Positions 11,744-27,814 of a stretch of DNA of 56,302 nucleotides are shown piece by piece. The stretch's first letter is position 1; the number at the start of each line of letters is the position of its first letter. Made by a program: the position numbers and the translations under genes. Origin of the DNA: Clostridia bacterium (GTDB lineage Bacteria; Bacillota; Clostridia; Christensenellales; CAG-138); assembly GCA_017438865.1 (NCBI GenBank), contig JAFRUN010000055.1:1-56302 (forward strand), written 5' to 3'. The notes below the pieces were generated by a model that worked only from the letters and a program-made list of their open reading frames with translations, was not told the DNA's origin and made no database searches.

Positions 11744-11749
11744 ACAAAC

Positions 11750-11788
11750 GCAAACAAAAAAAGCCGCTTACGCGGCTTTTTTGTTTGC
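11750..11788. terminator. Strong bidirectional terminator at the phage-module end
   Basis: Extended inverted repeat running from 11750 to 11788 with GCCGC/GCGGC core, TTAC loop and flanking A and T tracts. It closes both the lipoprotein gene (plus) and the phage operon (minus). Confidence 0.9.
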
Positions 11789-11790
11789 GC

Positions 11791-12630
11791 TCAGGCGGGG
11801 AAGCTCCGCTTCAGCTTTGCAAACGCTTCGGGACCGAGACTGTAAAGGATCTCGCTGCGCAGCTTGAGGTAGCCGGGATCGCTGCGGTTATAGAGCCGCG
11901 CGCGCTCGGACGGGTTCATCCGCGCAAGCGCGTTCGCGACGGCGTTGTAACTCGTTTTCGGGGCGTTCTCCTGCGCGCTCAGGAGCTTTTCCGCCATCGA
12001 GCCGTTCGCCGCGGCCGTCGTGCCGCCTGCTCTGCCGCCGCTGCGTCCGCCGCCCGCAAGATACGACCGGTACAGCGCCTGCGCGGAACTCATCGCCTTT
12101 TCGCGGGCGCGGTTGATCTGTTCGGCGTTGAACTGATCGACTTCGAGCTTCGTCTTCTGCTGCTCCTTCATCGCGTCGTACAGGTGTCCGGCGAGCGTCG
12201 AGGAATAATCGCTCTCGATCGTGTCCACGTCGCGCGCTTCGTCGCGCAGCTGACGGCTCTTCACGTCCGAGAGATAGGTGCTTTGTCCCATGCCGCGCGA
12301 CCACGCGTCGGCGTCGAGCTCGGCGTTGATCCTGCCCGTCTGCTCCCGACGGCTCTGGATCGCCTGCTCATAGGCGGGGCGGAGCCAGTTGCGGATCGTT
12401 TCGGACAGGACCTCCTCGGAGAGCGGCTCGAATTCGACGGTTTCGGGCATATAGTGCTGCAGCATCTGCTGAAAGACGGATTCAAACGAGGGGATCTTCG
12501 CCTGCGATCCGCCCCCGTATCCGGATCCGCCCGCGCCGCCGGCGGTCGTCTGCCGTTCGTTCTCCTTTTTTGCGGAGAGGCGGTCGAGACGGATCGGCGG
12601 CGTCCAGGGTTTGATAGGTAGTCTGATCAT
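11791..12630 (-). CDS. Phage-module protein of unknown function, helical
   Basis: Last gene of the capsid module, 279 residues. The start at 12630 has AAGGAG upstream. The N-terminal tail (about 1-45) is disordered and Gly-rich; residues 50-215 look strongly helical and charged (YEQAIQSRREQTGRINAELD; AMKEQQKTKLEVDQ); a second Gly/Ala-rich linker follows; the C-terminal helix carries NPSERARLYNRSDPGYLKL. No known family is recognised. Position and helical, linker-rich composition would fit an internal or ejection protein of a short-tailed virion, but this is inference. Confidence 0.72.
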   Translation of the reverse strand: MIRLPIKPWTPPIRLDRLSAKKENERQTTAGGAGGSGYGGGSQAKIPSFESVFQQMLQHYMPETVEFEPLSEEVLSETIRNWLRPAYEQAIQSRREQTGRINAELDADAWSRGMGQSTYLSDVKSRQLRDEARDVDTIESDYSSTLAGHLYDAMKEQQKTKLEVDQFNAEQINRAREKAMSSAQALYRSYLAGGGRSGGRAGGTTAAANGSMAEKLLSAQENAPKTSYNAVANALARMNPSERARLYNRSDPGYLKLRSEILYSLGPEAFAKLKRSFPA

Positions 12631-12634
12631 GTGG

Positions 12635-12832
12635 TTATTCTCCTTCCGTATGTTCGGCAAAAGCCGATTCGAGTTCCAGGAGCTTGTTGTAAAGAAGCTC
12701 CAGATTCTGGTTCAGATTGTTTTCGTTCTGCGAGACGCCGGAATCGTAGGTGTCGCGGTCGATCGCCGCGGACGGCATCCGTCCGAGATAGACCGGAAAC
12801 AGCGCCTGCATGCCGGTTGCTTTGTACGCCAT
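12635..12832 (-). CDS. Small phage-module protein
   Basis: Protein of 65 residues, start with GGAGGCGA upstream. The sequence begins MAYKATGMQALFPVYLGRMP and ends in an acidic amphipathic helix (NLNQNLELLYNKLLELESAF) that could form a coiled coil. It sits four bases before the 279-residue gene and eleven bases after the propeller gene, inside the same transcript. Not recognised; probably a structural or assembly accessory. Confidence 0.65.
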   Translation of the reverse strand: MAYKATGMQALFPVYLGRMPSAAIDRDTYDSGVSQNENNLNQNLELLYNKLLELESAFAEHTEGE

Positions 12833-12843
12833 CGTTCGCCTCC

Positions 12844-14274
12844 TTATCCGGGCCGCTTCTGCTGATCGCAGAGCAGCGTCACCGGCGCGTCGAGCGTAAA
12901 CGGCTGACCGTTGACGGAGCTGAACCGGAGCCGGAACACGCGTCCGACGCCGCGCAGCGGGATCTCCGTGACGGAGAACGGCGTAGAGGACAGGCGGATG
13001 CTCGTTTCATACACGCCGCCGTCCGCATCGACGCGCACGGCAAGGTTGCCTTCGCCGCTTGCGGTCAGCCGCAGAAGCGTCTTGTTCACGTCCTTTCGGC
13101 CGAGATCCATCGCGGGCGTCGTCCACCACGCATCGATCGGCGCGCCGTCGTATCGGCTGCTGTTGTCGAACGCGACGAGCTTTCCGGCGTCCGTCAGCAT
13201 ATACAGCACGCCGTGGACGGTACACAGATCGACGGGGCAGAAGCCCTTTCGGAGCATGAACCGGTCGCGCGGGATGTCGTATTCGACCAGCGTGTCGTTA
13301 TACGGCGCGTCGTAGCGCGAACGGATCGCGAAATACAGCGTGTCGTCGCAGGCGGCGGCGCGCGCATACCCGAGGTTCGCAAATTTCAGAAGCGGCTCGA
13401 GCGCGCGGAACGCCGGGCTTTTGCGCACGGTCTGTCCGTCGTAAAAGCACAGCCCGCCGTCGGTCAGAAAGAACAGCCGGTCGGTATAGCGCACGCAGGC
13501 GGTGTGCAGCGGCTGGCGGAACGACGCGTCGACGACGATGATCCGGTAGTTTCCCGGACGGTCGCCCAGAAGCCGGTACAGCGAGTCGCGCTTGAAGATC
13601 AGAAGCTGGTTCGACAGCGCGAACAGTCCCGTGATCGGATCGTCGTCCACGCCGACGTCGACAAAGCCGCCGGAGACGTTTTCGCTCGCCTCGTCGCTGC
13701 GCCAGTCGTCGATCGTTCTGCCGCCGCCGGGCGCCTTGCTCCAGTAGAGACGGCTCGGCGATGCGGGATCGCCGGCGGTGAACAGCCGTCCGAAGTACAG
13801 CTCCGCAAAGCTCACATACTTATCCGACAGCTTTTCCGCGGAGCCGAACGGTTCGATCCGGTCGGTCGCGGCGTCGAATGTGATCATCGGCTCGGTCCCG
13901 CAGGCGATCAGAAGGCGGTCTGCCGTCCCGATGCGCACCCTGAGAAAATCCATGCTTTCGCCCATGACGCCGTTTGTGAACTGATACAGCGTGCGCCACA
14001 GGTGCGCGTTTTCGTCGTAGAGATACAGCACGTCCTGCGCCGCGGCGAGATACCGGTTCCCGAGCTCGGTCGTGTAGACGTACATCCGTTCGAGCGACCG
14101 TTCCGCCTCCACCGGCTCCGGCATCACGCGGGAAAAGCCCGAAGCGGTGCGGAGCGCGCCGGAGCGCGTGTCGAGATTGCAGGCGTCCGGACTCATATCG
14201 GGCTTCAGAAGTCCTTCGCACAGATCCATGCGTATGCCGCCGAACGACGGCAGCGATACGGTCTGATATGCCAT
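12844..14274 (-). CDS. Beta-propeller-like phage neck/plug protein
   Basis: Protein of 476 residues. Repeated short strands with the pattern YL..A....LYLYDE, RLLIACGTEPMITFD, LLIFKRDSLYRLLG, RLFFLTDGGLCFYDG and LYFAIRSRY suggest a beta-propeller. Such proteins act as packaged-DNA stabilisation or plug factors at the portal of short-tailed phages (P22 gp10-like role). Homology is inferred from architecture and gene order, not proven. It follows the adaptor gene by 13 bases. RBS AAGGAGG. Confidence 0.7.
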   Translation of the reverse strand: MAYQTVSLPSFGGIRMDLCEGLLKPDMSPDACNLDTRSGALRTASGFSRVMPEPVEAERSLERMYVYTTELGNRYLAAAQDVLYLYDENAHLWRTLYQFTNGVMGESMDFLRVRIGTADRLLIACGTEPMITFDAATDRIEPFGSAEKLSDKYVSFAELYFGRLFTAGDPASPSRLYWSKAPGGGRTIDDWRSDEASENVSGGFVDVGVDDDPITGLFALSNQLLIFKRDSLYRLLGDRPGNYRIIVVDASFRQPLHTACVRYTDRLFFLTDGGLCFYDGQTVRKSPAFRALEPLLKFANLGYARAAACDDTLYFAIRSRYDAPYNDTLVEYDIPRDRFMLRKGFCPVDLCTVHGVLYMLTDAGKLVAFDNSSRYDGAPIDAWWTTPAMDLGRKDVNKTLLRLTASGEGNLAVRVDADGGVYETSIRLSSTPFSVTEIPLRGVGRVFRLRFSSVNGQPFTLDAPVTLLCDQQKRPG

Positions 14275-14287
14275 AGACGCCTCCTTT

Positions 14288-14842
14288 CTACCGGCGGTTG
14301 ATGATCTGATAATCGGTCGGCTCGTCGAAGTCGAGCTTCAGACGGCGCTTGCGCGTTTCGTACAGCGACATCGCCGAGGACGCGTGATTCAGTCCCTGCG
14401 CGTCGTTCAGCATACAGAAACGGCCGACCATATACAGCACGATCAGCGGATGACAGGCGGCGGGCAGCTCCGGCTCGTCGTCGTCTTCGGCCAGCGTTTT
14501 CGGAAGGATGCGGTACACGACGGTCATCGGTCCGTCCGGCACGCCGGGCACGCGAAGCGTGTTCGTATCCGCGCCGTAATAAAACGGGATGCGCATGCCG
14601 CCGCGTTCCGTGCCGAGCACCTTTCCGACGGCATACGGCAGCGCGGTCAGATCGAGCGCGCCGTTCATAAGCGGCAGCGGATCGCGCCGCCAGGGACGAA
14701 AGGTCTCGTAAAGGTCGATCACCGCTTCGTTCGCAAACCGCAGCAGTTTCTCCTGCCAGAGCGGCAGTTCCGCGCAATCGTCCGGATGATCCAGCTCGCC
14801 GAGCGCGCTTTCGATAAGTTCACGGACGGTCACGGCGATCAC
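14288..14842 (-). CDS. Phage neck/tail adaptor-like protein
   Basis: Protein of 184 residues with a helical start (VRELIESALGELD...WQEKLLRFANEAVIDLYETF), a central beta region and a helical end (HPLIVLYMVGRFCMLNDAQGLNHA). This is the layout of phage adaptor proteins that sit under the portal. The start is a GTG at 14842 overlapping the previous stop (GTGA), an unusual start for this module that implies coupled translation. Confidence 0.7.
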   Translation of the reverse strand: MIAVTVRELIESALGELDHPDDCAELPLWQEKLLRFANEAVIDLYETFRPWRRDPLPLMNGALDLTALPYAVGKVLGTERGGMRIPFYYGADTNTLRVPGVPDGPMTVVYRILPKTLAEDDDEPELPAACHPLIVLYMVGRFCMLNDAQGLNHASSAMSLYETRKRRLKLDFDEPTDYQIINRR

Positions 14843-15084
14843 CCGAGCTTTCTGCCGCCGACCGCGGAATACGCGTCCGTTGCGCGGCTGCCCGCAAGAA
14901 GGTCCCTGCGGCTTTCGGCAATGATGCGCGCGATGCGGCGGGGGACGGACACAAGCTGATCGGTCGGGATCCGGAAGTTCACGCCGTTCAGCGCGCCCTC
15001 GAGATACGCGCCCGTGCCGTCGGAGGGAAGATAGACGGAGACGTGCTCCTCGTTTTCGGTTCTGGTTTTTTGCTTTGTATTCAT
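14839..15084 (-). CDS. Small phage-module protein after the capsid gene
   Basis: Protein of 81 residues with AAAGGAG upstream. A charged N-terminal tail is followed by a small basic domain (YLEGALNGVNFRIPTDQLVSV; RRIARIIAESRRDLLAG). Proteins of this size and place after the capsid gene are often capsid decoration or neck accessories; no family is recognised. It overlaps the adaptor gene by four bases. Confidence 0.65.
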   Translation of the reverse strand: MNTKQKTRTENEEHVSVYLPSDGTGAYLEGALNGVNFRIPTDQLVSVPRRIARIIAESRRDLLAGSRATDAYSAVGGRKLG

Positions 15085-15105
15085 CGGGTTAGCTCCTTTC
15101 TTTTG

Positions 15106-15132
15106 CCCGGGGAAGGGCGTTCCTTCCCCGGG
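15106..15132 (-). promoter_or_regulatory. Strong stem-loop after the capsid gene
   Basis: Perfect 11-base GC-rich stem (15106-15116 with 15122-15132), five-base loop, directly past the capsid stop on the minus strand and without a T-tract. It looks like an mRNA-stabilising or attenuating element rather than a full terminator. Confidence 0.6.
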
Positions 15133-15138
15133 ACCGGT

Positions 15139-16347
15139 TTACTTCGAGACCGTGTGCTCGATGCGCACGATCCAGAGCGGGTTCAGGACCTTCGCGGCGT
15201 ACGCGGCGACCTTTGCGCCGACGGTCGCGCGCTGGTTCAGCGGATCGCCGCTGCCTTCGCTGCCGTGGGGCTTGATGATCGTTTCCATCGTGCCGGAGCC
15301 GTCGACGTCGATGACGCCGTATGCGTCCGCGCCGAAGACCAGCGTCGCATGGACGTCGTACTGATGCTTTCCGTCGATGAACGCGCCGGCGTCGTTCGTC
15401 CAGACGGTTGCGCCGACCGAATAGGTGACCGATTCATCGACGGTCAGCGTGCACGTTTCGCGGTCGAAGGAACGGATCGTCAGCTCCTGCTCGTTGAGGA
15501 AGATCGGGTTGTCCGGGGTGGACAGATAGCGGATCTGATCCTCGGTCAGGAACGTGCGCAGCGGGATCGCGTGCGTCGACGTCGCCGACGCCTGCCGCAC
15601 GAGCTGACAAACGCTCTGACGGTAGACCTTCGCTTCGGTCGATTCGACGAACACGACGCCGAACAGACGGCCGATCTCGCCGGAATAGATCTGCTCCGCG
15701 TTGCTGTACTTGCTGACGTCCTGCCACAGCGGATCGTTCTGTAGATCATAGGTCGCGTCCGGCGAGCAGATGCACACAAAGTGCGGACGGCGCACGGAGC
15801 CGTCTTCGGCGGAGGTGAACATGCGCGCCTTGTTCTTCTTCAGCGTGCGGACCGCCTTGCGGATCTCGTCCACGGTGAGCACGGCGCTGCCGTCCAGCTC
15901 GTCGCGGTAGTCGTGTCCGTTCGCGTACTGCACGTTGGTCGTCGCGCACATCGCGTCGCGGGTGACCCATTCGATCACGGTGCCGAGCTGTTCGCCCAGA
16001 AGCTCCGCGGAGTCCGCGAGCACTTCGTCGTAGGCGGTGAGGTCCAGAAGGTCGCTGACCTCGACGTATGCGCCGTACTGACTGACCTCCGCTTCCACGT
16101 TGGACTGCGTCAGCGACTGTCCGTTCGGAGTCACGCCCTCCTCGAGCGTCAGCGATTCGACGTCGGGCGTGAAGAGCTCGTATTTGCGGAACTCCACGCG
16201 CTTGCCGCCGTGCCGCGGGATGCTGCGCTTCTGACCGAAGCTCGCGTGGACGAGACGCGTCTTTGCGGTCTCCAGGAGCTTCTTGTCATAGAACTGTTTG
16301 TTGAAATAGGTGTTTTCCAGGGTGTTCAGAGTGGTATTGATTGCCAT
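15139..16347 (-). CDS. N4-gp56-family major capsid protein
   Basis: Protein of 402 residues. The N-terminus MAINTTLNTLENTYFNKQFYD, the segment KRSIPRHGGKRVEFRKYELF...SLTLEEGVTPNGQSLT and the following QYGAYVEVSDLLDLTAYDEVL are characteristic of the N4-gp56 family of HK97-fold major capsid proteins. The C-terminal part carries TVGAKVAAYAAKVLNPLWIVRIEH, also typical. It has a very strong ribosome binding site (AAAGGAGGAAG) and a stem-loop after the stop, as expected for the most abundant virion protein. No truncation. Confidence 0.92.
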   Translation of the reverse strand: MAINTTLNTLENTYFNKQFYDKKLLETAKTRLVHASFGQKRSIPRHGGKRVEFRKYELFTPDVESLTLEEGVTPNGQSLTQSNVEAEVSQYGAYVEVSDLLDLTAYDEVLADSAELLGEQLGTVIEWVTRDAMCATTNVQYANGHDYRDELDGSAVLTVDEIRKAVRTLKKNKARMFTSAEDGSVRRPHFVCICSPDATYDLQNDPLWQDVSKYSNAEQIYSGEIGRLFGVVFVESTEAKVYRQSVCQLVRQASATSTHAIPLRTFLTEDQIRYLSTPDNPIFLNEQELTIRSFDRETCTLTVDESVTYSVGATVWTNDAGAFIDGKHQYDVHATLVFGADAYGVIDVDGSGTMETIIKPHGSEGSGDPLNQRATVGAKVAAYAAKVLNPLWIVRIEHTVSK

Positions 16348-16359
16348 AGCTTCCTCCTT

Positions 16360-16782
16360 TTAAATATGGACTCGTTTGCCGTTGTGCGCGGCGTTTCTGT
16401 ACTGTCTCTCAAGCGCCGAAAACGCTTCCTTCGACATGGACATATAGTCCGGCGCGGGCGCGACCGCACGGTCGCCGCGCTGGGATTTCGGCAGCGCGCT
16501 GCGGCTTCTCGCCTGCTCGCTCATACGCGTTTTTACGCTGTTCTCGGCTTCATCGGCGCGCTTTTCCGCGACGTAAATACGCACGGCGGCCTTCGGCTCG
16601 AATTCGCTGAGAAGCTCCGCGAACGCGCGGTCCTGCGTCGCTTCAACGAGATCGAACGCTTCGGGCAGCTCGCCGTTCTGTTCCATCTCGACGAGCACCT
16701 CGGCGGCCTCGATGAACGGATTTTCCGCTTCGGTTCCGACCGGCTCGTTTTCGACGGGCGTCTCTTTCTTTTTGAAGATCAT
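16360..16782 (-). CDS. Phage scaffold protein
   Basis: Acidic, helical protein of 140 residues between portal and capsid genes, the classic place of a scaffold. Glu/Ala-rich helices (FIEAAEVLVEMEQNGELPEAF; AVRIYVAEKRADEAEN) and a basic, likely disordered C-terminal end (SRSALPKSQRGDRAV ... AHNGKRVHI) match capsid-binding tails of scaffolds. GGAGGT ribosome binding site. Confidence 0.75.
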   Translation of the reverse strand: MIFKKKETPVENEPVGTEAENPFIEAAEVLVEMEQNGELPEAFDLVEATQDRAFAELLSEFEPKAAVRIYVAEKRADEAENSVKTRMSEQARSRSALPKSQRGDRAVAPAPDYMSMSKEAFSALERQYRNAAHNGKRVHI

Positions 16783-16785
16783 AGT

Positions 16786-18393
16786 TTACCTCCGGTTTTT
16801 CTTTTTCGTTCGTTCGGGGAACAGCGGTTCAGCTTCCGCCGCCGCTTCCCGCATCTGTTTCAGTACCTGTTCCTTTCCCTCAAAGACCATGAGGGAGATC
16901 GCCTGCTCTTTGGTGAGCGCGCCGAGCGACAGCAGATTCATGATCAGCTCGTTCTGCGCGGCGCCGGCGAAGCGGCTGCGGCGGACCGCCTTGATCGAGA
17001 TCAGAAACTCGACCGGCAGGCGTGCGCCGCCCGGCGCGTTTTTGCTCAGCACGTCGCTGTCGAAGAACACCTCTCTGGGCTCTCCGTCGACGGTGATCGT
17101 CACGGGGCGCAGGTAGCAGTTGAACTCGCGCTCCGTTTCGATCTCGAGCCGCACCGCCTCGCGGAACGCCTCGTGCAGCTGATCGGTCGCCATCCGCGCG
17201 CGCTTGGTGCTCATTTCCTGCAGCGCCTCGATCGCGCGCGCCGCGGTCACGCCGCCGGGCGCCGCGCCGCGCGAGGAGTCGTTCGCGCCGCTCTCTTCCT
17301 TGATGCTTTCGCGGATCGACTGGATATAGGAGAGCAGGTAGTTCGGCAGCGGCGCGGTGGTCATCCACGTTACGCCGTTCAGGTTTTCGCCGGTGTGCAC
17401 GTCCTTCGACCAGTCACGAAGGTCGTCCGGATCAAAGCCGGACGCGTCGGTGACCAGCAGCTTGTTGCGCGAGGCGAGGAACGCGTTTTTCAGCACGAGC
17501 TGGTCGAGCTTGTCCGCATACAGCTGCTGCGTGCCGAACAGATCGACGACGCCGAAGCCGAGGGCGCTTCCCTTCCGCGGGTAGAGCGTTGTCAGTACGA
17601 ACGGGTACCGACCGTGTGCAAAATAGCCCTCCGGCTTGACGTCGCGGCTGTCCTCAAGCACAACGCCGCCGCAGATGAGCGCCATGTGCACGCGATACAG
17701 ATCTTCCGCCGCATCGTATTCGCGCCGCCAGTATTCGATCAGCAGACAGGCGTTTTTCGGATCCGGCGCGAGGATCTCGTCGGTGATCAGCTCCGCCGCA
17801 TCAAGGGGACGGGATCCGATGAGCGGGGACAGGTCGGGATAGTGTGTTTCGATCCACGTCCTCGGACGCATCGCCAGCTTGAATACGGCGCGTCCGTCCT
17901 GAAGATCGGTGACGAGCGGATCGATGAGAATGCTGCGAATGTCGACGCGGCGAATGAACGCGCCGCCGAGGCCGCCGTTTTCGGTGCTGTCGTAGCCGAC
18001 CTCCTGCACGCAGTAGCCGCCGACCAGCAGATCGTGGATCATGCGGCGATACTCCACGGGATATGCGGCGGCGTCGTGGTTCCGGCGGATGACCGCGTCG
18101 ATGACCTGCGCGGCGTAGGCGTCGGCGGCGCTTTCGGGCGTGATGACCGCTTCCGGCGTCTGATCCGAGAGGTCTGAGGACACGTTTTCGATCGTGGACT
18201 GCAGAATCGGCGTCACCGGACGCGGCTCGTTCGGATCGGTCACGGGCACATTGTACCAGTGCTCCCCGCGATACATCCGCTCGTTGTGCTCCTGCCGCCG
18301 CCACTCGTTCACATATGCGCTGCGAAACTCGCGGAACAGCGTCATGGCTTCTTCGGCAAGCCGGCGTTTGGTTTCGGTTTGTCTTGGTTTCAT
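16786..18393 (-). CDS. Phage portal protein
   Basis: Protein of 535 residues forming the DNA-entry ring of the capsid. Start MKPRQTETKRRL at 18393 has AAAGGA upstream; the longer open frame to 18633 reads through the terminase end and is rejected. Seen: an N-terminal helical clip/wing (NERMYRGEHWYNVPVTDPNEPRPVTP, split here), a long central region with LGFGVVDLFGTQQLYADKLDQL, and a helix-rich stem (GGVTAARAIEALQEMSTKRARMA, split here). Length, order after the terminase and motif pattern support a short-tail-type portal. Confidence 0.9.
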   Translation of the reverse strand: MKPRQTETKRRLAEEAMTLFREFRSAYVNEWRRQEHNERMYRGEHWYNVPVTDPNEPRPVTPILQSTIENVSSDLSDQTPEAVITPESAADAYAAQVIDAVIRRNHDAAAYPVEYRRMIHDLLVGGYCVQEVGYDSTENGGLGGAFIRRVDIRSILIDPLVTDLQDGRAVFKLAMRPRTWIETHYPDLSPLIGSRPLDAAELITDEILAPDPKNACLLIEYWRREYDAAEDLYRVHMALICGGVVLEDSRDVKPEGYFAHGRYPFVLTTLYPRKGSALGFGVVDLFGTQQLYADKLDQLVLKNAFLASRNKLLVTDASGFDPDDLRDWSKDVHTGENLNGVTWMTTAPLPNYLLSYIQSIRESIKEESGANDSSRGAAPGGVTAARAIEALQEMSTKRARMATDQLHEAFREAVRLEIETEREFNCYLRPVTITVDGEPREVFFDSDVLSKNAPGGARLPVEFLISIKAVRRSRFAGAAQNELIMNLLSLGALTKEQAISLMVFEGKEQVLKQMREAAAEAEPLFPERTKKKNRR

Positions 18394-18416
18394 AATAGAT
18401 CCTTTCTTTGTGTTTT

Positions 18417-19748
18417 TCAGAGTCCGCAGAAGCCGGGGGAGAGCAGCGGCGTGCCCGCAAGCGGATCGTAGCGGTACGGGCGCTTCCGCTTCTCCTCCGG
18501 CGCGGGACGCGGGCGGCTCATCAGCCCGTAGCGCAGCGCCTCCGGCGCATGGTCCTCGCAGGCGTCCGACACGTCCTCGGCGTCGTGCGCATCGAACGTC
18601 AGCGTCGGCAGCGTGCGGATCAGATTCCTGCACGTCTCGAAGATGAAGAGCTCCGGCGTGCCGTCGGGCTGCTCTGCCAGCGCTTCGCGAACGCGCTGCC
18701 AGCCCGGGACGCGGGCGTTGTCCGCGGGGAGCAGGGGCACGCCGTTGTGCGAGAAGACCTCCGCGATGCTTTCACCTTCGACGCCTTTCAGACCGCGCTG
18801 CTGCCACGCGTCCGGCGACGCCACCGTATAGGCGATCCGCTCGCCCTCCGAAAGCTGCTTCACCCGCCTTGCGATCTCGCTCGACAGCGTCTTGCGGAGA
18901 TACAGCTCGCGGTATACCCAGAGCTTCCCCTCCGGCGCAACGGCAAACCACAGCACACAGCACGGATCGTTATAGCCCCAATCCATTGCGCGAAAGCGCT
19001 TCCACTCCATCGGGAGCCGCGTCGGGCGCACGACGTGCCGGCTGCGGTCGAATTCCTGAAAGAACTGTCCCTCGAGAATATCCCAGTTGCCGTCCAGGTA
19101 CGCTTTTCTGAGATGTTCCGGCAGATTTTCGAGCGTTTCGAGGTACTGCGGATTCGTTTGAAGCAGCACCGGGTTGTCGGTGACGCGCGCCGGAATGAAC
19201 ACATAGTCCTCCGCGCGCTCGCTGTTGCGGTAATCGCGGTCGATGAACAGCCGCTTCACCCATGTGTGCCCAACGCCGCCGGGGTTGCAGGTATAGTACA
19301 TACGCGGCGAGAAGTCGGTCCGCACCGAACGGTTGCAGGTCGTCAGAAACTGCATCTGCGTCTCGGTAAAGTGCGTCGCCTCCTCAAGCCCGATCACGTC
19401 GTATTCCTGCCCCTGATACTGGAACACGTCGGCTTCGCGGTCGCAGTAGCCGAGCTTGATGCGGCTGCCGTTCGGAAATACGAACGCGCGCTGCGTCGCC
19501 TGATAGACCGCCGCGCCCGCCAGCTCCTTCTGCAGCGGCAGCACATGGTTTTCGTTGAGCTCCGGCAGCGTCCGGCGCAGCAGCAAAAGCCGGAGTCCCG
19601 CATAACGAAAGGCAAGGAGCACGAACTTCCGGCGCATCGCCCACGACTTGCCGCCGCCGCGCGCGCCGCCGTAGGCGATATGCCGTGCGGCTGCGAGGAA
19701 GAACCGTTCCTGCTTCGGGTTCGGCGTACCGGGAAGATGCAGGATCAT
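18417..19748 (-). CDS. terL: Terminase large subunit
   Basis: DNA-packaging motor of 443 residues. The ATPase domain has Walker A GGARGGGKS (27-35) and Walker B around VIGLEEA (118-124). The coupling motif lies near TCNPGG, and the nuclease domain begins with FRAMDWGYNDP (Asp256), with further acidic residues near the C-terminus (DAHDAEDVSDAC). All catalytic motifs appear intact, so the motor is probably functional. It overlaps the small subunit gene by four bases (ATGA). Confidence 0.95.
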   Translation of the reverse strand: MILHLPGTPNPKQERFFLAAARHIAYGGARGGGKSWAMRRKFVLLAFRYAGLRLLLLRRTLPELNENHVLPLQKELAGAAVYQATQRAFVFPNGSRIKLGYCDREADVFQYQGQEYDVIGLEEATHFTETQMQFLTTCNRSVRTDFSPRMYYTCNPGGVGHTWVKRLFIDRDYRNSERAEDYVFIPARVTDNPVLLQTNPQYLETLENLPEHLRKAYLDGNWDILEGQFFQEFDRSRHVVRPTRLPMEWKRFRAMDWGYNDPCCVLWFAVAPEGKLWVYRELYLRKTLSSEIARRVKQLSEGERIAYTVASPDAWQQRGLKGVEGESIAEVFSHNGVPLLPADNARVPGWQRVREALAEQPDGTPELFIFETCRNLIRTLPTLTFDAHDAEDVSDACEDHAPEALRYGLMSRPRPAPEEKRKRPYRYDPLAGTPLLSPGFCGL

Positions 19749-20137
19749 TTCGAATACCTCTCCGCAGCGTCGTCCAGAACGATCTCCAGAACGCCGTCCG
19801 CCTGTTCCGCCGCCTGATTGAGCCCCATCGCCCGCAGCGCTTCCAGCGCGGATTGATAGTTCAGCTCGCCGAGCAGCGTCCGCTCGAGCGTGTAGGCGGC
19901 AACCTTCAGAACCGCGTCGCGAAGGATCGCGTTCTCTTCGGAACGCCGCTCCGTGCGAAACGCCGCAAGGACTTCCTCCGGCGTCAGGCGCACGGCCCTC
20001 GCGAGACCGAACAGGGTGTAGGGGATCTGTCTCTCTTCGATGCCCCCGTTCTTCAGCTCGCGACGCTCGCGCGTTGCGTCGCAGGCCGCAAAATACGCCC
20101 CGATCGCGCTGTTCAGTTGTTCTGTTCTTCGGCTCAT
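19745..20137 (-). CDS. terS: Terminase small subunit
   Basis: Protein of 130 residues, first gene of the phage operon; start at 20137 with GGGAGG five bases upstream. Helical with a helix-turn-helix-like stretch (YTLFGLARAVRLTPEEVLAAF) and a C-terminal oligomerisation region. Position immediately before terL and size support a DNA-recognition subunit. Sequence alone gives only moderate support. Confidence 0.75.
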   Translation of the reverse strand: MSRRTEQLNSAIGAYFAACDATRERRELKNGGIEERQIPYTLFGLARAVRLTPEEVLAAFRTERRSEENAILRDAVLKVAAYTLERTLLGELNYQSALEALRAMGLNQAAEQADGVLEIVLDDAAERYSK

Positions 20138-20165
20138 GTCTGCCTCCCTGCCTTTCGTTGCAAAC

Positions 20166-20176
20166 AGCATAGCATA
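20166..20176 (-). promoter_or_regulatory. Putative -10 region of the phage operon
   Basis: Two overlapping TATGCT hexamers on the minus strand (20171-20176 and 20166-20171) lie 29-34 bases before terS. The matching -35 position falls inside the palindrome at 20184-20210. Confidence 0.45.
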
Positions 20177-20183
20177 GAAACTT

Positions 20184-20210
20184 CGGACAAAATTCCCGGA
20201 ATTTTGTCCG
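20184..20210. promoter_or_regulatory. 27-base perfect palindrome, probable operator of the phage operon
   Basis: Perfect 13-base arms around a single central base; arms run from CGGACAAAATTCC to its complement. It covers the expected -35 region of the phage operon and is not followed by a T-tract, so a protein-binding operator is more likely than a terminator. No regulator gene lies in the module. Confidence 0.65.
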
Positions 20211-20221
20211 ATTTCAAGCAC

Positions 20222-20268: not shown

Positions 20269-23124
20269 TTAATCGATCGTCGTGGTATAGACCGTGGTTT
20301 CAAGCGCTTCCGTCTGCTTCCAGAAGAAGATCTCCGGGTTCGCGGTGCGGCTGACCATGAAGTAATTGTTCGCGGAGAATCCGAGATACGGGATCGTCCT
20401 CGAAGCGCCGTTCGTCGCTTCCGCGGCGGTATCGTTCACGGCAAGCGTCCAGCGGTCGTAGCTTGCGGCGTCGGTCTTATAGCTCATCAGATATCCGCCG
20501 CGGCTTGCAAGGTATGTGCCGGTCTCCGCGCTGCGGATCGTGAATCTGCCGTCCGCCGCGGCGACCGTAAAGACGTATGCATCGGTTACGCCGGTCAGCA
20601 GCCCGCCGTCCAGCGTCATGCCGGTTTCGGCAAATGCGACTGCGCCGCCCGCCGATACGGACTCGTATTTTCCGGTTCCGGCAAGTCCCTTGAGCGCGTA
20701 CAGCGCATCGGTCTTTCCGCAGGTGATGACGTAATTTCCGCTCCAGTCGTCCGGCGCGGCGGTCACAAGCCGGTAGCGGTCTGTCACGCTCACCGTATGG
20801 GAATACAGCGCGTTCAGCGTGACGTTCGCGGTCGGCGTATAGCTGTCGGTGAAGACCGCGGGCAGTTCGCCGACATTGTCGTATTCTTCCGTCACCCAGC
20901 CGAGGAAGGTATATCCGTCGGGCGCGTCCGCATCGGGCAGCGTGATCGATTCGCCAGTCGGACAGGTCGCGGTTTCGGGCGCCGTTACGCCCGCGGGCAC
21001 GGAGAAGCGCACCGTATATGCCGCGTTTACAAGGATGCAGTTATAGAACCAGTCGTCGCCGCCGTCCAGATTCGGACGGAACCGCACCAGATATGTGCCG
21101 TCCGCGGTGATCTCGCCGTTCTCGCCGTAGTTGTTGCCCATGCCGGTGGGGAACCAGTCTGCGTCGTTGATCGAAGTGCCGTTTTCGGAATACGCGATCT
21201 TGAACTGGTTCGACGTCGTCAGGTCGACGGTGATCCGGTACTCGACCGGCGACGAACCTTCGACCTTTGCAAGCTGATACACGGCGGCGGGCGCCCAGCC
21301 CGTCATATTGCCGACGAGGTAATACCCTGCCGCGTCGTGCCGGCTCCATATGCCGTTGTCCGGATTGCCTTCGCCGCCGTAGCCCGTGATCGTATAGGTG
21401 TCGGAGCCGGGAGGCGGGATCAGATCCGCCGTCTGGTCCCACACATTGCCGCTGTCCCAGCCGGGCTGCGACGCGCCGCTGCTCATGCGGCAGAAGATCA
21501 CGTTGTTCCATGTGCCATCGGGAAGCTCTGCGGCATACGATCCGTCGCCGACCGCCGTCATGCGCACCCAGGCCGTCTGTCCTTCGCGGTTGAAGAGATA
21601 CATTGCAAACCATGCGCCGTCCTTGTCCCAGAGCGAGGTCGGCACAAGGTACAGCGGCGAAACGTCGATGCCGTCTGTCGCGGCTTCGTTCGCATTGTAG
21701 AGCACCGCGACGCCGCTGTCTGCCACCGTACCGGACAGTCTGCCGTTCAAAACCGTAAAGGTGCTGCCCGTGACCTGATCCGTATATGTGCCGTCCTTCA
21801 TGCGGTACACCGGCAGGTTCACGCTGCGCGTGTCGCCGAGACAGCTGATGACCGCGCCGTTCGTGCCGCGCTCGATATAGGTGATCTTCGCGCCTTGATC
21901 AAAGGAGAGATATTCGGTCGTGCCGTCGAAATGATTCTTGAACTTATTGACCTCGGCGATCTCCGTGGACTTCCAGGTCGTGTCCGAGCTTGCCAAACCC
22001 ATCGTTTCGTTCGGGCGCGCGAGGAACAGCGAGGTGGAATCGGCCCTCGCGCCGACGATCGCCCATGTCTTCACGATGACCGAATCGGAGAGCTCATTCG
22101 TATGGTCGTTCATGTAATTGTCGTGCGATTCCGCCCAAAGGACGTAGTCGCTCGGGGTATCGCCCTTTGCGTAGGCGCCGACCGCAAGCGCGCCCGCATT
22201 CTGGTCGCGGACCGCTTCGCGCGCGTTGTTGCCGGTATCGCTGTCGGTCAGCCCCATATACTGTGTATAGTTGTGAACGTCCGTGCCGACGGCGCCGAGG
22301 ACCTCGCCGTAGATGAACAGCTCGTGGTCCGCGTATTCACGCACGCCGTTCAGCACGACGGGCCAGTAATCGCTCGCGCAGTTCCATGCAGTGTCGGTCG
22401 GCAGCTCGATGTGCTTTGCCGCGTCAAAGCGGAAGCCATCCACGCCGCAGTCGACGCATTCCTTGAGCAAACGCAGGACCTTTGCCTGCACGTCCGCATG
22501 CCCGGTGTTCAGATCCGGCTGCCCCATGTGTCTCTGGGTGATATTGTAGCGGTTGTCGTTATATTCATAAACGATGCCTTCCGGATCGCTGTGATAGTAT
22601 GCTTCGACTTTCATCTCCTCATCAACGTCGGTGCTCAGATTTGCGTATGTACCGCCGCTCTGGCCGTTGTTCGCCAGGTGGTTGGAAACGATGTCGACAA
22701 TGATCTTGATGCCGTAGTTGTCCGCTTCCGCGCAAAGCGCCGTCAGCTCCGCCTTTGTGCCGAGCCACGAGGTCGCTTCGCCGTTGTCGTCCGTCGGCGC
22801 GATCCGCAGTCCCAGCGGCTGATACAGCTTCCACCATTCGCCGTTCGTTGACGTGTAAACGACGCCCTCGTACCGGTAATCCTTCGGCTCCTGCACCGGC
22901 GAGGTCTGCACCGCGGTATAGCCCGCCGCGGCGATTTCCGGCAGAGCGGCTTTGATCGCGTTGTACGACCAGTCGAAGCAGTGCAGGATCGCGCCGCCCT
23001 GCACGGAATCGAGCGCATAGGTCTCGACCGTCTCCGCTTCGGCGGTTCTCGGAGCGAATACGGCGGGCACGAGGCAAAGCACCATCAACAGCGCCAGCAG
23101 AGCCGCAACCAGTTTCCGTTTCAT
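20269..23124 (-). CDS. Secreted multidomain GH13 alpha-amylase
   Basis: Extracellular glycoside hydrolase of 951 residues. Signal peptide 1-30 with an AEA cleavage site. The GH13 barrel lies at about 40-440, with conserved VDIVSNH, nucleophile Asp234 in GFRFDAAKH, acid Glu274 in IYGEVLG, and Asp335 in ESHDN, all present. Downstream is a probable carbohydrate-binding module (WDKDGAWFAMYLF ... WNNVIFCRM), a second module with GYYLVGNMTGW, an InlB-type B-repeat-like domain (PDADAPDGYTFLGWVTE) and a C-terminal module. No LPXTG or membrane anchor, so probably released or held by binding modules. Strong AGGAGG site. Confidence 0.93.
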   Translation of the reverse strand: MKRKLVAALLALLMVLCLVPAVFAPRTAEAETVETYALDSVQGGAILHCFDWSYNAIKAALPEIAAAGYTAVQTSPVQEPKDYRYEGVVYTSTNGEWWKLYQPLGLRIAPTDDNGEATSWLGTKAELTALCAEADNYGIKIIVDIVSNHLANNGQSGGTYANLSTDVDEEMKVEAYYHSDPEGIVYEYNDNRYNITQRHMGQPDLNTGHADVQAKVLRLLKECVDCGVDGFRFDAAKHIELPTDTAWNCASDYWPVVLNGVREYADHELFIYGEVLGAVGTDVHNYTQYMGLTDSDTGNNAREAVRDQNAGALAVGAYAKGDTPSDYVLWAESHDNYMNDHTNELSDSVIVKTWAIVGARADSTSLFLARPNETMGLASSDTTWKSTEIAEVNKFKNHFDGTTEYLSFDQGAKITYIERGTNGAVISCLGDTRSVNLPVYRMKDGTYTDQVTGSTFTVLNGRLSGTVADSGVAVLYNANEAATDGIDVSPLYLVPTSLWDKDGAWFAMYLFNREGQTAWVRMTAVGDGSYAAELPDGTWNNVIFCRMSSGASQPGWDSGNVWDQTADLIPPPGSDTYTITGYGGEGNPDNGIWSRHDAAGYYLVGNMTGWAPAAVYQLAKVEGSSPVEYRITVDLTTSNQFKIAYSENGTSINDADWFPTGMGNNYGENGEITADGTYLVRFRPNLDGGDDWFYNCILVNAAYTVRFSVPAGVTAPETATCPTGESITLPDADAPDGYTFLGWVTEEYDNVGELPAVFTDSYTPTANVTLNALYSHTVSVTDRYRLVTAAPDDWSGNYVITCGKTDALYALKGLAGTGKYESVSAGGAVAFAETGMTLDGGLLTGVTDAYVFTVAAADGRFTIRSAETGTYLASRGGYLMSYKTDAASYDRWTLAVNDTAAEATNGASRTIPYLGFSANNYFMVSRTANPEIFFWKQTEALETTVYTTTID

Positions 23125-23174
23125 GAGAATTCCTCCTATTGTTTCGGACCGATTTGTCCGGACTTTTATGCAAT

Positions 23175-23203
23175 TATATATTTTATCACCAAGAGAGGTT
23201 CAA
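23175..23203 (-). promoter_or_regulatory. Promoter of the amylase gene
   Basis: Minus strand TTGAAC (23198-23203), 17-base spacer, TATATA (23175-23180; an overlapping TATAAT gives a 19-base spacer). Downstream at 23145-23160 is CGGAC-6-GTCCG, an inverted repeat in the leader that may be regulatory. Confidence 0.55.
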
Positions 23204-23220
23204 TGCAAGCGCCGATCAAC

Positions 23221-23247
23221 AAAAAAAGGAGCCGTCAGCTCCTTTTT
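23221..23247 (-). terminator. Terminator of the HtrA gene
   Basis: Stem 23223-23232/23238-23247 with CGTCA loop and a T-run on the minus strand, past the protease stop at 23261. Confidence 0.8.
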
Positions 23248-23260
23248 CGACAGAAAATTC

Positions 23261-24484
23261 TTACGGTTCGGTCGGCACATACTCCGCAAACGTGACGCGG
23301 ATCGTGATCCGCTCGCTGTCGCGGCGGATCAGAAACTCCGCAGACTCGCCGGCGTTATAGCCCGCGATGATGTCGGAAAGATCCGCGTTCGAGCTCACCT
23401 CTTTGCCGTCGACCTCCAGGATCAGATCGCCCGCTTTGAGTCCCGCCTGTTCCGCGGCGCTGCCCTTTACGACGTCCGTGATCTGCACGCAGCGCGTACC
23501 GCCGTAGGAAAAGAAGCCGTAGCCGTTCGTCAGCGTCACGTTCTGCGTATACACGCCGAGCGACGCGCGTCCGGTCACATAGCCGTAGTTCAGAAGATCG
23601 TTGATCTCCTTGACCACGCTGTTGACGGGGATCGCGAAGCCGAGCCCCTCGGCGTCCGAGTCGGAGACCTTGGCGTTCACGATGCCGATGAGCCGTCCCG
23701 ACGCGTTAAAGAGCCCGCCGCCCGAATTGCCCGGGCTGATGGCGGCGTCCGTCTGCACAAGCTCCATTTCCGTGCCTTCGACCGTGATGTTGCGCTTGAC
23801 CGCCGAGATCATGCCGCCGGTCGCCGTGCCGCACAGCTCGCCCAGCGGATTGCCGATCGCGATCACGTCCTCGCCGACGGTCAGCATATCGCTGTCGCCG
23901 AGGGCGGCGGGAGTGAGACCGGTCGCGTCGATCTTGATGATCGCAAGGTCGTTGCGCTTATCCGTGCCGATCAGCGTCGCCTCATAGGAGGTGTCGTCGT
24001 TCAGCGTGACGGTCAGCTTCTTTGCGCCGTCCACGACGTGCGCGCAGGTGGCGATATAGCCGTCCGCGGTGATGATCACGCCGCTGCCGCTGCCCGGCTG
24101 TTCATAGGTCTGCGTCCGTCCCCAGTAGGAAACGGTCGTCTCGAAGATGCCGTCGATGCCGACGACGCTCGGCGCGCAAAGCTCCACGACCTGCGCGCGG
24201 GTGTACGGTCCTTCGTTGACGAAGCTCGTCGAGGGGGAGACCGTAAGCGTCTGTTCCGGGACCGCCGTCGAGACGGGCGCTTCGGTCTGCTGCACTTCGA
24301 CCGCCTGCGGAACCGCCGTCGCCGCGGGAAGCTCCGCCGCCTGCGAAAGGTTCTTGTTCTGCATCGTGCTGTTCATCAGGATCACGCCCGCGAACAGTCC
24401 GATCACCACAGCCATCGCCGTGCAGGCGATCAGCACCGACACGCCGACGCCGCGTTTTGCGCGATTCGGCTGATTGTATTCCAT
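23261..24484 (-). CDS. HtrA/DegP-type membrane-anchored serine protease
   Basis: S1C protease of 407 residues for envelope protein quality control. One N-terminal membrane helix (about 14-36), a Pro/Ala/Thr linker, then a trypsin-like domain with triad His149 (ATCAHVV), Asp179 (RNDLAIIK) and Ser254 (GNSGGG). One PDZ domain follows at about 305-395 (GLKAGDLILEVDGKEV). ATG 24484 has GGAGGT upstream; a longer open frame to 24679 lacks a site. Divergent from the DUF368 gene. All catalytic residues are intact. Confidence 0.95.
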   Translation of the reverse strand: MEYNQPNRAKRGVGVSVLIACTAMAVVIGLFAGVILMNSTMQNKNLSQAAELPAATAVPQAVEVQQTEAPVSTAVPEQTLTVSPSTSFVNEGPYTRAQVVELCAPSVVGIDGIFETTVSYWGRTQTYEQPGSGSGVIITADGYIATCAHVVDGAKKLTVTLNDDTSYEATLIGTDKRNDLAIIKIDATGLTPAALGDSDMLTVGEDVIAIGNPLGELCGTATGGMISAVKRNITVEGTEMELVQTDAAISPGNSGGGLFNASGRLIGIVNAKVSDSDAEGLGFAIPVNSVVKEINDLLNYGYVTGRASLGVYTQNVTLTNGYGFFSYGGTRCVQITDVVKGSAAEQAGLKAGDLILEVDGKEVSSNADLSDIIAGYNAGESAEFLIRRDSERITIRVTFAEYVPTEP

Positions 24485-24631
24485 AAAAATACCTCCGGTT
24501 TTTCTTTTCACCGCAGAGTATACCCTTTGATTGTGAAACCGGTTTGTCAAAAATACGGCAATTTCAAAAACAAATCGTGACGGATGCGTGCCGCCGTTTG
24601 TGAAAAAGCTGTAAGAAATCGCGGTGCGCGG

Positions 24632-24666: not shown

Positions 24667-25878
24667 ATGAATACGACAAAGAAAATCATCAATTGGATCG
24701 TCGCCGTGCTGAAGGGCACGCTGGTCGGTCTCGCCATCGTCATCCCCGGCGTGTCCGGCGGCTCGATGCTTCTCACCATCGGCGTTTACGAGGACGCCGT
24801 TTCCATCACCTCAAAGGACAAAGCGCGCCGCCGCGCCGCGATCAAAAAGCTGATCCCGTATGCGCTCGGCATCGTGCTGGGCGTCGTCGCGCTGTCGTTC
24901 GTCGTCACATGGCTGCTTTCAAACTTTGAGTTCTTTACGATCCTGCTGTTCTCGGGACTGATCCTGGGATCGCTGCCGATGCTGTTCAAAAAGATCAGGG
25001 GGCAGAAGGTCAGGTTCGGCTATATCGTCGTCGCGCTCGTCATGATCGCGCTGATGGTGCTGCTGCCGTACCTGAACGACAACACGAGCGAAACGTTCCG
25101 CATCCTGAACGAGACAGACACCCTGTCCGTCGGCGAACGCATCGTTCTGCAGGACGAACAGCAGTCCGAGCTCGTCGTGCAGAACGGCGATCCGGATTAC
25201 AGCGTCTGGGAGATCAAAAGCGCGGGCGGTACGTTCGGCAAGCCGGAGGACGGCTATAAGCTCCGCAGCAGTCTCGACAAGAAGGTCTTTTACACGCTCG
25301 GCACGGAGGACGTCTTTGATCTTGCGATCGAACAGGACGGTCTTCTGACGCTGACGGCAAGAAACAGCGGCGAAACGCTGCATACGTCCGTCTACCGCGC
25401 CGTCGACGCGCTGAACAACGGCTTCTGGAGCGCGATGCTCGCCCTGCTGCTCGGTTTTATCGCGGCGGGCACGATGATCGTGCCGGGCATCTCCGGCTCG
25501 ATGGTCATGCTCGTGCTCGGCTACTATTACAGCGTCATGACGCATCTGAAGAGCTTCGTGGTCTGTCTTCTGACGCTGAACTTCGCGCAGATGGGCAAGC
25601 ATATCCTGGTGCTGCTGCCGTTCGGCATCGGCATCATCCTCGGACTGCTGCTGGTGTCGAAGGCGATCCGCTGGCTCCTGGACAAACATCCGACGCCCAC
25701 CTATTACGGCATCCTTGCGCTGATGCTCGCGTCGCCCTACGCGATCTTTTTGAAAGCCAAGTGCTTCGGTCCGGCGTTCGGCGCAAGCGTCGCGCAGTGG
25801 TGGTTCATCCCCGTCGCCGTCCTGTGCCTTGCCGCGGGCTTCGTCGTCTCCTTCTTCATGTCGAAAAAAGAAGGATAA
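24667..25878 (+). CDS. DUF368 (PopT-type) polyprenyl-phosphate transporter with inserted domain
   Basis: Membrane protein of 403 residues. Two inverted-repeat-like halves each carry the family signature: IPGVSGGSM (26-34) and VPGISGSM (272-279). The DUF368 family includes PopT, which returns undecaprenyl phosphate across the membrane. Unusually, residues ~137-252 form a soluble, beta-rich, charged insertion between the halves; ordinary members are near 270-300 residues. Its mRNA is predicted leaderless. Functionally it would pair with uppP at 2798. Confidence 0.88.
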   Translation: MNTTKKIINWIVAVLKGTLVGLAIVIPGVSGGSMLLTIGVYEDAVSITSKDKARRRAAIKKLIPYALGIVLGVVALSFVVTWLLSNFEFFTILLFSGLILGSLPMLFKKIRGQKVRFGYIVVALVMIALMVLLPYLNDNTSETFRILNETDTLSVGERIVLQDEQQSELVVQNGDPDYSVWEIKSAGGTFGKPEDGYKLRSSLDKKVFYTLGTEDVFDLAIEQDGLLTLTARNSGETLHTSVYRAVDALNNGFWSAMLALLLGFIAAGTMIVPGISGSMVMLVLGYYYSVMTHLKSFVVCLLTLNFAQMGKHILVLLPFGIGIILGLLLVSKAIRWLLDKHPTPTYYGILALMLASPYAIFLKAKCFGPAFGASVAQWWFIPVAVLCLAAGFVVSFFMSKKEG

Positions 25879-25888
25879 GGTCAGCATC

Positions 25889-25919
25889 AAAAAGGACTGC
25901 CCGCGGGCAGTCCTTTTTT
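25889..25919. terminator. Bidirectional terminator
   Basis: Palindromic GGACTGCCCG/CGGGCAGTCC core (25894-25913) flanked by A and T tracts; ends the DUF368 gene and, in the other direction, the zinc-ribbon gene. Confidence 0.85.
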
Positions 25920-25930
25920 CGTGTCTTGTT

Positions 25931-27286: not shown

Positions 27287-27390
27287 AATGTTTTCTCCTC
27301 TCGTTTTATTGAACAACGGCAAGATGTTTTTCGTATATCCGTTTATGACATCGTAACCCATAAATATACTTGCGTCAATATCGTTACGCT

Positions 27391-27399
27391 ATTATAACA
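27391..27399 (-). promoter_or_regulatory. Extended -10 promoter for the zinc-ribbon gene
   Basis: Minus strand TG-T-TATAAT, about 105 bases before the start at 27286; no clear -35. Weak support. Confidence 0.4.
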
Positions 27400-27447
27400 A
27401 GGTTTATTGCCGGAGAAAAACACCTAAAATAGTAGTAAGGTGAAGAT

Positions 27448-27674: not shown

Positions 27675-27782
27675 TTTCCATTGGCTGTCTATCTTGAAAT
27701 CTTTCGCCAAATGGCATCTCATGGAGCAACGAGAGCAAGTTCTTTGTGCAACGAGCTGGTTGCCGGAATAAGTTTTTAGAAA

Positions 27783-27814
27783 ACAACCGTCACGGGTATA
27801 ACCGTGACGGTTGT
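27783..27814. repeat. Perfect 13-base inverted repeat (hairpin)
   Basis: ACAACCGTCACGG and its complement around a six-base loop, 108 bases past the XRE stop. It could terminate that transcript, although the T-tract is weak on both sides. Confidence 0.5.

Follow-up and report, generated by a model that had tools for sequence, protein, structure and literature searches.

The stretch of DNA analyzed here, referred to as the window, is the whole 56,302-nucleotide contig JAFRUN010000055.1 of assembly GCA_017438865.1, from a Clostridia bacterium of the order Christensenellales (lineage CAG-138), and it carries on its minus strand a cassette of ten contiguous genes related to phage head and DNA-packaging genes (Table 1). 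We propose, at a probability of about 0.7, that this 8.35-kb cassette serves as the operon for head and packaging in a system akin to a gene transfer agent (GTA), one that has been domesticated from a short-tailed (P22/SU10-like) temperate phage and is inherited vertically. Judged from sequence comparisons, the existence of a domesticated capsid system is well supported and the bacteria probably make virus-like particles loaded with their own DNA, while gene transfer by such particles would be roughly an even bet. Indeed, the conserved presence of the cassette, its agreement with the RpoB phylogeny, the common neighboring genes, the purifying selection and a promoter that co-varies with that of a distant lysis operon argue for a domesticated system and not for a stray prophage. 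The original prediction, made from the window alone, had likewise proposed a domesticated capsid system, and conserved presence, vertical inheritance, common neighborhood, purifying selection and lysis genes located elsewhere all speak for it; among the three forms it had offered, which were a GTA, a helper-dependent capsid island and a short-tailed particle used by the host, a GTA-like system fits best and a self-mobilizing helper-dependent island fits poorly. The genome to which the window belongs, as contig C50, is a metagenome-assembled genome (MAG) of 1.92 Mb and 79.5% completeness, hereafter G000.

Distribution of the cassette

A search of 61 genomes with the major capsid protein (MCP) of the cassette yielded matches in 37: these comprise 20 of the 23 genomes of the genus (G000 included), 11 of 14 from other genera of the family and 6 of 24 from other families of the order. 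All seven genus members with a completeness of at least 90% have a single MCP copy, and the three genus members lacking a match are 71, 82 and 59% complete; G022 (62% complete) has two MCP pieces on two contigs. The large terminase gene, terL, gives strong matches in 19 of the 23 genus members and a weak one in G019, as well as matches in 10 of the 14 others of the family. G025 has no MCP match, yet terL is present, and g10 together with g6 to g8 lies at a contig end. As a control, the capsid family of ordinary prophages (PF05065) was found in 4/23 genomes of the genus and in 8/37 of the family.

Scanning named genomes returned 62 loci, mostly in MAGs labeled Clostridia, Clostridiales, Eubacteriales or Christensenella/Christensenellaceae and many with the rumen or another ruminant-gut source in their title, the outliers being L111 (labeled Eggerthellaceae) and L090 (labeled Bacilli). 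At the level of the class, MCP relatives occur in 54 of 391 genomes. In 20 loci taken from these, MCP and g6 are in many cases accompanied by g8, portal or terL, the order varying; some of the loci may be prophages.

In genomes from other families of the order, L218/L219 (G037), L221 (G057) and L225 (G060) display all or part of an array resembling terL-portal-MCP-g6-g7-g8-g10, and where their MCP gene is complete its product is shorter. In L274 (G122:C11, from another family) the head genes are scrambled, following the order g8, portal, g6, MCP and terL, and then comes a protein of at least 1893 residues.

Inheritance and selection

Inheritance was analyzed by Mantel correlation of RpoB and cassette tree distances with 2000 permutations. 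For MCP in 27 genomes the correlation is r = 0.835 (p = 0.0005; best permutation 0.462), and the MCP tree reproduces 10 of the 17 strong RpoB splits. For MCP in 18 members of the genus r is 0.821 (p = 0.0005; best permutation 0.815), and for a concatenate of five cassette genes in 19 genomes it is 0.924 (p = 0.0005; best permutation 0.810), with 6 of 10 strong splits in common in either case. These results indicate that the cassette is inherited vertically as a part of the host genome, with some exchange. Its position is in line with this: a named locus is available for 19 other genus members, and 13 of these (L053-L064 and L086) share a neighbor with the window, in the sense that one or more of their flanking genes match a window gene at 50% identity or more; outside the genus the uvrA side is kept in L072, L073, L081 and L113.

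The ratio of nonsynonymous to synonymous substitutions (dN/dS, method NG86) was determined in the two closest pairs of genomes. Between G000 and G004 it ranges from 0.045, observed for g9, to 0.397 for nine genes and amounts to 0.60 for the short terS, and between G003 and G010 it is 0.016-0.246 for the nine comparable genes, g10 being comparable in just one of the two pairs; RpoB yields 0.05-0.06 in these pairs. When all pairs with dS below 1.5 are considered, the per-gene medians are 0.17-0.45, against 0.11 for RpoB, and the single-pair maxima reach 0.96 (g6) and 0.89 (terS). The lengths of terL, portal, MCP, g7, g8 and g9 are nearly constant across 19 genomes, and this is the telling point, as the absence of premature stops is partly by construction, open frames having been picked. 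Taken at the level of sequence, the cassette is thus maintained by purifying selection, and both comparisons that the original prediction had proposed, that of position and inheritance among relatives and that of dN/dS, come out in its favor.

A defective prophage remnant heading for loss would also consist of phage-derived genes with no adjoining genes for integration, replication or regulation, and related temperate phages do exist. However, near-constant gene lengths in 19 genomes, dN/dS values mostly well below 1, broad agreement with the RpoB tree and a neighborhood common to most genus members make this very improbable, and the promoter element drifts together with that of a distant lysis operon (see below), which is unexpected under decay. 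A decaying prophage was therefore rejected.

Lysis genes at other loci and fibers in relatives

Functions that are missing from the cassette were in part located elsewhere. In G000 a trio of lysis genes, e0-e2-e1, encodes an NlpC/P60 lysin (e0, 1.2e-12), a holin/XhlA-like protein (e2, phrog_689, 5.9e-7) and a small protein with a membrane-like stretch (e1). Trio loci were fetched for 20 genomes of the genus, G002, G017 and G021 being left out, and although the presence of a lysin in loci fetched for holding one is by construction, e0, e2 and e1 are contiguous in 16 of the 20 loci, one per genome, and all 16 genomes carry the cassette. As for the exceptions, L334 retains e0 and e1, and L327, L329 and L332 have other small genes. 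A second lysin, d2, which combines NlpC/P60 with PG_binding_1, lies on contig C55 of G000, and the 18 loci retrieved on its account carry it as well. The search for missing functions elsewhere in the genome, which the original prediction had suggested, thus succeeded for lysis, with the trio and the second lysin, and no fiber was found in G000.

At the d2 start (L168:7843-8600 on G000:C55, and most of L169-L183) a terminator-like hairpin lies upstream, with the ribosome-binding site within its 3' arm and a T-run and the ATG following closely; by eye, the arms co-vary between species.

Fibers are found in some relatives. In G005 and G020 a fiber gene lies upstream of the lysin (Gp10_C, 8e-18, tested in G005); the G005 fiber as a query matched five of 26 genomes, and fiber alignment A3, run on 37 genomes of the family, found two genus members (G012 and G019) besides nine further family genomes. 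The BppU_N search of 37 genomes of the genus and the order (other genera of the family left aside) found no fiber in the genus, and a Phage_holin_4_1 search of the same set found one genus member, G006. In several loci of the sister genera the run from MCP to g10 is followed by a fiber-like gene, a lysin and a holin or other small membrane protein: cluster mates of the fiber-like gene in phages L042 and L046 match BppU_N, the lysin behind g10 is NlpC/P60 in L097 and L104, which were tested, and a different lysin in other loci, and the holin matches PF05105 in L088 (6.6e-41).

A promoter element common to dispersed operons

The cassette is preceded by a near-palindromic promoter element (Table 1), and related elements precede the lysis operon and a gene for a helix-turn-helix (HTH) protein in genomes of the same genus. 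We have compared by local alignment the regions upstream of terS and e0 in the 14 genomes that have both, some of the alignments extending into the ribosome-binding site. Pairs from the same genome reach a mean score of 26.9 and those from different genomes 14.8 (permutation p = 5e-5); in 11 of the 14 genomes the score exceeds the highest of 280 shuffles (18.0; shuffle mean 9.8), and the own e0 partner ranks first in 7 of 14. In fact, the versions of the element differ clearly between genomes and yet are the same at both sites in G003, G008, G009, G012 and G018. The regions upstream of terS and d2 give a flat comparison (10.8 within against 10.4 between genomes): lacking a promoter in common with the cassette, d2 is left out of the regulon.

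A position weight matrix (PWM) was built from seven terS sites and run on the window and 28 loci of the genus (435 kb), considering the best three sites per locus. The top site of the window is the element itself, with 86 bits, although it is among the seven sites used to build the matrix; the next scores are those of the same palindrome on the opposite strand (0.2) and then −3.1. Twelve further sites score above 25 bits, five of them before e0, six before or at the usual position of e10 and one orphan. The e10 site of G000 was found with 50 bits, and in G008 and G012 too the site before e10 is similar to those elsewhere in the same genome. The orphan element (L058:4227-4277, 27 bits) lies between two minus-strand open reading frames (ORFs), with no phage-like gene recognized after it. 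The winged-HTH protein e10 may be the regulator of the units that bear the element; e10 is not seen beside the trio in several genomes, which puts this role in question. Searches of IMG/VR gave no match for e10 nor for one exact promoter pattern.

In the sister genera G024, G029, G028 and G035 the terL-portal and scaffold-MCP operons are on different contigs, and in two of these genomes the promoters of the two operons have long stretches in common, with scores of 32.0 in G024 and 34.5 in G029 against shuffle maxima of 17.0 and 15.0. The simplest reading of the co-varying promoters would be a co-regulated, dispersed system, gene conversion between promoters being the alternative.

Genes and flanks of the cassette

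Table 1. Predicted features of the cassette and of the distant lysis locus of G000 (window positions unless a locus is named; sizes in residues; MCP, major capsid protein)
Feature	Position	Strand	Size	Basis or remark
terS, small terminase	19745..20137	-	130	PF16677 GP3_package 2.6e-7
terL, large terminase	18417..19748	-	443	PF04466 1.6e-11, PF03237, phrog_979 1e-51
portal	16786..18393	-	535	PF16510 P22_portal 4e-22, phrog_156 2e-48
probable scaffold	16360..16782	-	140	position between portal and MCP; conserved cluster
MCP	15139..16347	-	402	phrog_1357 1e-70, PF13252 4.5e-9
g6, small conserved protein	14839..15084	-	81	cluster in 64 loci
g7, head-tail adaptor (SU10-type)	14288..14842	-	184	PF24175 SU10_adaptor 2.3e-9, phrog_399 3e-6
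g8, nozzle-like virion protein (putative role)	12844..14274	-	476	phrog_3287 8e-16, phrog_511 4e-5
g9, small conserved protein	12635..12832	-	65	cluster in 53 loci
g10, probable tail-tip/ejection protein (putative role)	11791..12630	-	279	cluster in 64 loci
intrinsic terminator closing the cassette	11745..11790	-		-28.1 kcal/mol, z -5.8
promoter element	20165..20215	-		near-palindrome CGGACAAAATTCC-GGG-AATTTTGTCCG, then extended -10-like TGCTATGCT
lysis trio e0-e2-e1	G000:C9, L315 9163-10293			separate contig from the cassette
e10, winged-HTH protein	L315:10654-11136	divergent from lysis trio		like phage replication-initiation proteins; carries the element

The ten genes between positions 11791 and 20137 have no internal stops and, as predicted, form a contiguous head and packaging set, with family matches. 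Of the coordinates first assigned, two gene starts had to be corrected, that of the portal to 18393 (the family scan was begun from 18378) and that of the last gene to 12630. The Walker A and B motifs and the acidic nuclease residues of TerL are intact, and they are nearly invariant across 41 TerL sequences not flagged as phage, a set in which some come from IMG/VR contigs and five are too short for Walker A. Other features read from the letters alone were also found: two four-nucleotide overlaps (terS/terL and g6/adaptor), GGAG(G) ribosome-binding sites before 7 of the 10 genes, a GC content of 0.54-0.65, similar to the 0.57-0.64 of nine host genes of the window, and a terminator at each end, the upstream one (z −4.3) terminating the amylase gene.

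The earlier assignment of a scaffold stands by position and by its conserved cluster and lacks a convincing family match, that to the tape-measure family phrog_2120 reaching only 0.061. Profile searches of the PDB with MCP retrieved phage capsids, three of them with values of 2e-6 to 6e-6 and two with 0.06-0.07; g8 and g10 gave no match. No family match was obtained for g6 or for the g10 protein of the window, and the g10 homologues from sister genera have an N-terminal PG_binding_1 domain in all three tested. Pfam and PHROG scans of the cassette proteins yielded no convincing match to long or contractile tail genes.

Host genes flank the cassette on both sides, and the lipoprotein and amylase genes named at the outset as its neighbors are indeed there: on one side lie a metallophosphoesterase lipoprotein, TrkA_C, GNAT, DUF218 and uvrA, and on the other the amylase, a trypsin-like/PDZ protease and cobalamin genes. 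A Pfam scan of 30 neighboring ORFs, one of which (23123-24580) is a wrong-strand ORF, found no integrase, phage repressor, endolysin or tail gene, as had been predicted, nor a phage replication gene; integrases were not searched in the remaining genome. A TetR regulator is encoded at 1009-1629. Attachment sites bounding the cassette had been named as contrary evidence, and no direct repeats pairing both flanks are seen in the 20 repeat families shown, of 24. A gene encoding a Big_2 domain lies in a part of the window (25000-28000) where the GC content is 0.42-0.49, compared with about 0.60 in the rest.

The cassette does not qualify as an intact temperate prophage: integrase, repressor, replication, fiber and lysis genes are not together in it and the 30 neighboring ORFs. 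The compactness of the 8.35-kb unit would suit a self-packaging satellite or helper-dependent capsid island, but this is quite unlikely: no integrase was found in the 30 neighboring ORFs and no flanking repeats were seen, the cassette tracks the host tree and mostly occupies one neighborhood, and the lysis genes are at another locus. Furthermore, the split of the terminase/portal and capsid operons in the sister genera, onto different contigs in four genomes, leaves no small whole unit. A satellite was thus rejected for want of an integrase and attachment repeats, and for its host-tree inheritance and its lysis genes elsewhere.

Relation to phages

The MCP matches 20 loci of IMG/VR, several of which (such as L033-L039) look like host cassettes by appearance. 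The IMG/VR-listed L034 coincides in length and match position with L068, a MAG contig that carries the cassette, and virus catalogs may hold more such host loci listed as viral. This listing of contigs as viral is also what would be expected if the cassette were part of an active temperate phage that the assembly had truncated or mis-joined, which we regard as the least probable of the alternatives considered: the 56-kb contig is continuous with host genes on both sides, the same neighborhood recurs in other assemblies, and no phage replication or integration gene is present in the 30 neighboring ORFs. An assembly artefact was rejected in view of the host genes on both sides and of the repeated neighborhood.

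Genuine relatives are temperate, podovirus-like phages (L040 and L042-L048 of IMG/VR, and a prophage of G029) with homologous terL, portal and MCP and mostly also adaptor and g8; in several, a BppU-like fiber and a lysin lie behind the head genes. They differ from the cassette in the integrase (4e-40) and repressor-like gene that identify L048 as a phage, in larger portals (591-637 residues) and g8 proteins (550-734 residues) and, in some, in a protein of about 1000-2000 residues, and their portals belong to a separate clade. The 45 portal sequences that bear no phage or order-level flag all group in their tree as a single clade (0.997), with the phages outside it. The terL tree contains one clade of 33 sequences (0.886), with seven sister-genus sequences adjoining the G029 prophage, and in the MCP tree phages are interspersed among the cassettes, which suggests that capsid genes have been exchanged. 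An insertion of about 85 residues in MCP is present in the aligned cassettes and in phage contigs L040 and L042, and absent from L043, L048, the G029 prophage and the G037 module. The original prediction had set a complete prophage carrying the same module in close relatives against its own reading; the related temperate phages fit this description only superficially, as L048 and the G029 prophage are separate elements, G029 carrying both a cassette and the prophage relative, and the 45 cassette portals have their own clade.

Evidence against a conserved, co-regulated system

A number of observations weigh against the interpretation as a domesticated GTA-like system. The system is known in this organism from genes alone and the completeness of its MAG is just 79.5%. 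G026 (98% complete) and G036 (94%) have no MCP or terL match, so that the system can be lost. As to inheritance, 7 of the 17 strong RpoB splits are absent from the MCP tree, a disagreement that reflects some exchange or noise; capsid and some terL sequences seem, from the trees, to have been exchanged with phages, and 6 of the 19 genus loci (L065, L066, L068, L071, L078 and L080) have no neighbor in common with the window. Concerning the distant genes, e1 has no convincing family match, the trio was not detected in G021, which carries the cassette, and no tail fiber was found in G000 by the searches with BppU_N, alignment A3 and the G005 fiber. The promoter evidence is uneven: in G000 itself the match between terS and e0 is moderate (16.5, partner rank 7 of 14, below the shuffle maximum of 18.0) and the PWM did not find the e0 site, G016 (10.5) and G007 (8.0) have no terS-e0 match, and in the sister genera the terL and capsid operon promoters do not match in G028 and G035, two of the four. 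Comparison of the scaffold with the terL/g6 promoters on ten sister-genus contigs was also negative overall (11.65 within and 11.5 between), L098 alone beating its shuffles.

Proposed mode of action

In the GTA-like system that we favor, some cells would activate the cassette, the HTH gene and the lysis operon jointly through a shared regulator. The portal and capsid shell would form on the scaffold and be filled with host DNA by TerS and TerL, the adaptor, g8 and g10 would close it as a short tail, and the lysin and holin would release the particles, which may then, as a less certain step, inject their DNA into relatives.

A GTA-like particle that packs host DNA and is released by lysis could kill competitors, as PBSX is reported to do, instead of transferring DNA; this would suit the genomic findings no less than a transferring GTA, and the cell-wall-binding domain in g10 of three sister-genus loci might be invoked for it. 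For FpGTA, the GTA of Faecalibacterium prausnitzii, PMC12946183 leaves open the same choice between killing and transfer. We consider such a killer particle unlikely, if less so than the alternatives discussed above, as no contractile or long-tail genes were found in the cassette and the 30 neighboring ORFs and, as an argument, a short-tailed head with an intact terminase would be a costly killing device.

Comparison with known systems

To our knowledge, few GTAs are known outside Alphaproteobacteria. The genes of RcGTA are dispersed over several loci, as in the present system, and RcGTA has a long tail; PBSX of Bacillus subtilis keeps its long tail and kills. RcGTA and its relatives (Rhodogtaviriformidae), as outlined in PMC9662315, resemble the present system in having a phage-derived structural cluster and vertical inheritance, and differ, when compared by description, from the head genes found here, which match P22/SU10-like families. 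PBSX, cited in PMC12946183, is likewise Gram-positive, phage-derived and thought to package host DNA, and differs in that no long-tail genes were found in the present cassette. The solvent-producing clostridia have conserved domesticated prophages that are mostly myovirus-like, according to PMC10538166.

The closest known system, likened through its described gene content to one known here from genes alone, would be FpGTA I/II. As described in PMC12946183 (Nat Commun 2026), FpGTA has an operon of ten ORFs whose products are homologous to proteins of short-tailed phages and a second operon for baseplate, fiber, receptor-binding protein, holin and endolysin, about 125 kb away in one strain; its particles measure about 40 nm and package fragments of 8.4-8.9 kb, and its authors call it the first GTA of podovirus-like morphology. 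Set against this description, the two systems are alike in the ten-ORF operon of short-tailed type with TerS, TerL, portal, scaffold (here by position) and capsid, in the lack of replication genes, in the lysis genes at a distant second locus and in their gut Clostridia hosts. They differ in size (10.5 kb against 8.35 kb here), in host group and in the second locus, which in FpGTA includes a fiber and here consists of genes for a lysin and for two small membrane proteins, the searches of G000 having revealed no fiber. The shared promoter element is reported here for the present system. A literature search, in which preprints were not covered, returned no description of such a Clostridia cassette besides PMC12946183.

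The same source mentions GTA-like packaging in Christensenellaceae, in 3 of 25 events and with the genes unnamed in its account of them, and Christensenellaceae are not represented among the four MAGs named there as having been searched for gene clusters. By analogy, these packaging events may find their missing genes in the present locus. It is tempting to go further, at somewhat less than even odds, and to envisage an ancient podovirus-type GTA lineage running through this Christensenellales-like family and perhaps other Clostridia, its units scattered (head and packaging, lysis, HTH and, in sister genera, terminase and portal) and linked through a single promoter element whose evolution is coupled to that of its regulator, for which the HTH protein is a possible candidate; such a lineage would account for the packaging in Christensenellaceae.

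The system can be traced over a family, and the promoter element common to capsid, lysis and HTH genes predicts a regulon and its switch. If confirmed, these findings would be a warning that virus databases count some host loci as phages, may supply the genes behind GTA-like packaging in Christensenellaceae and would widen the known ways in which genes are exchanged in rumen and gut.

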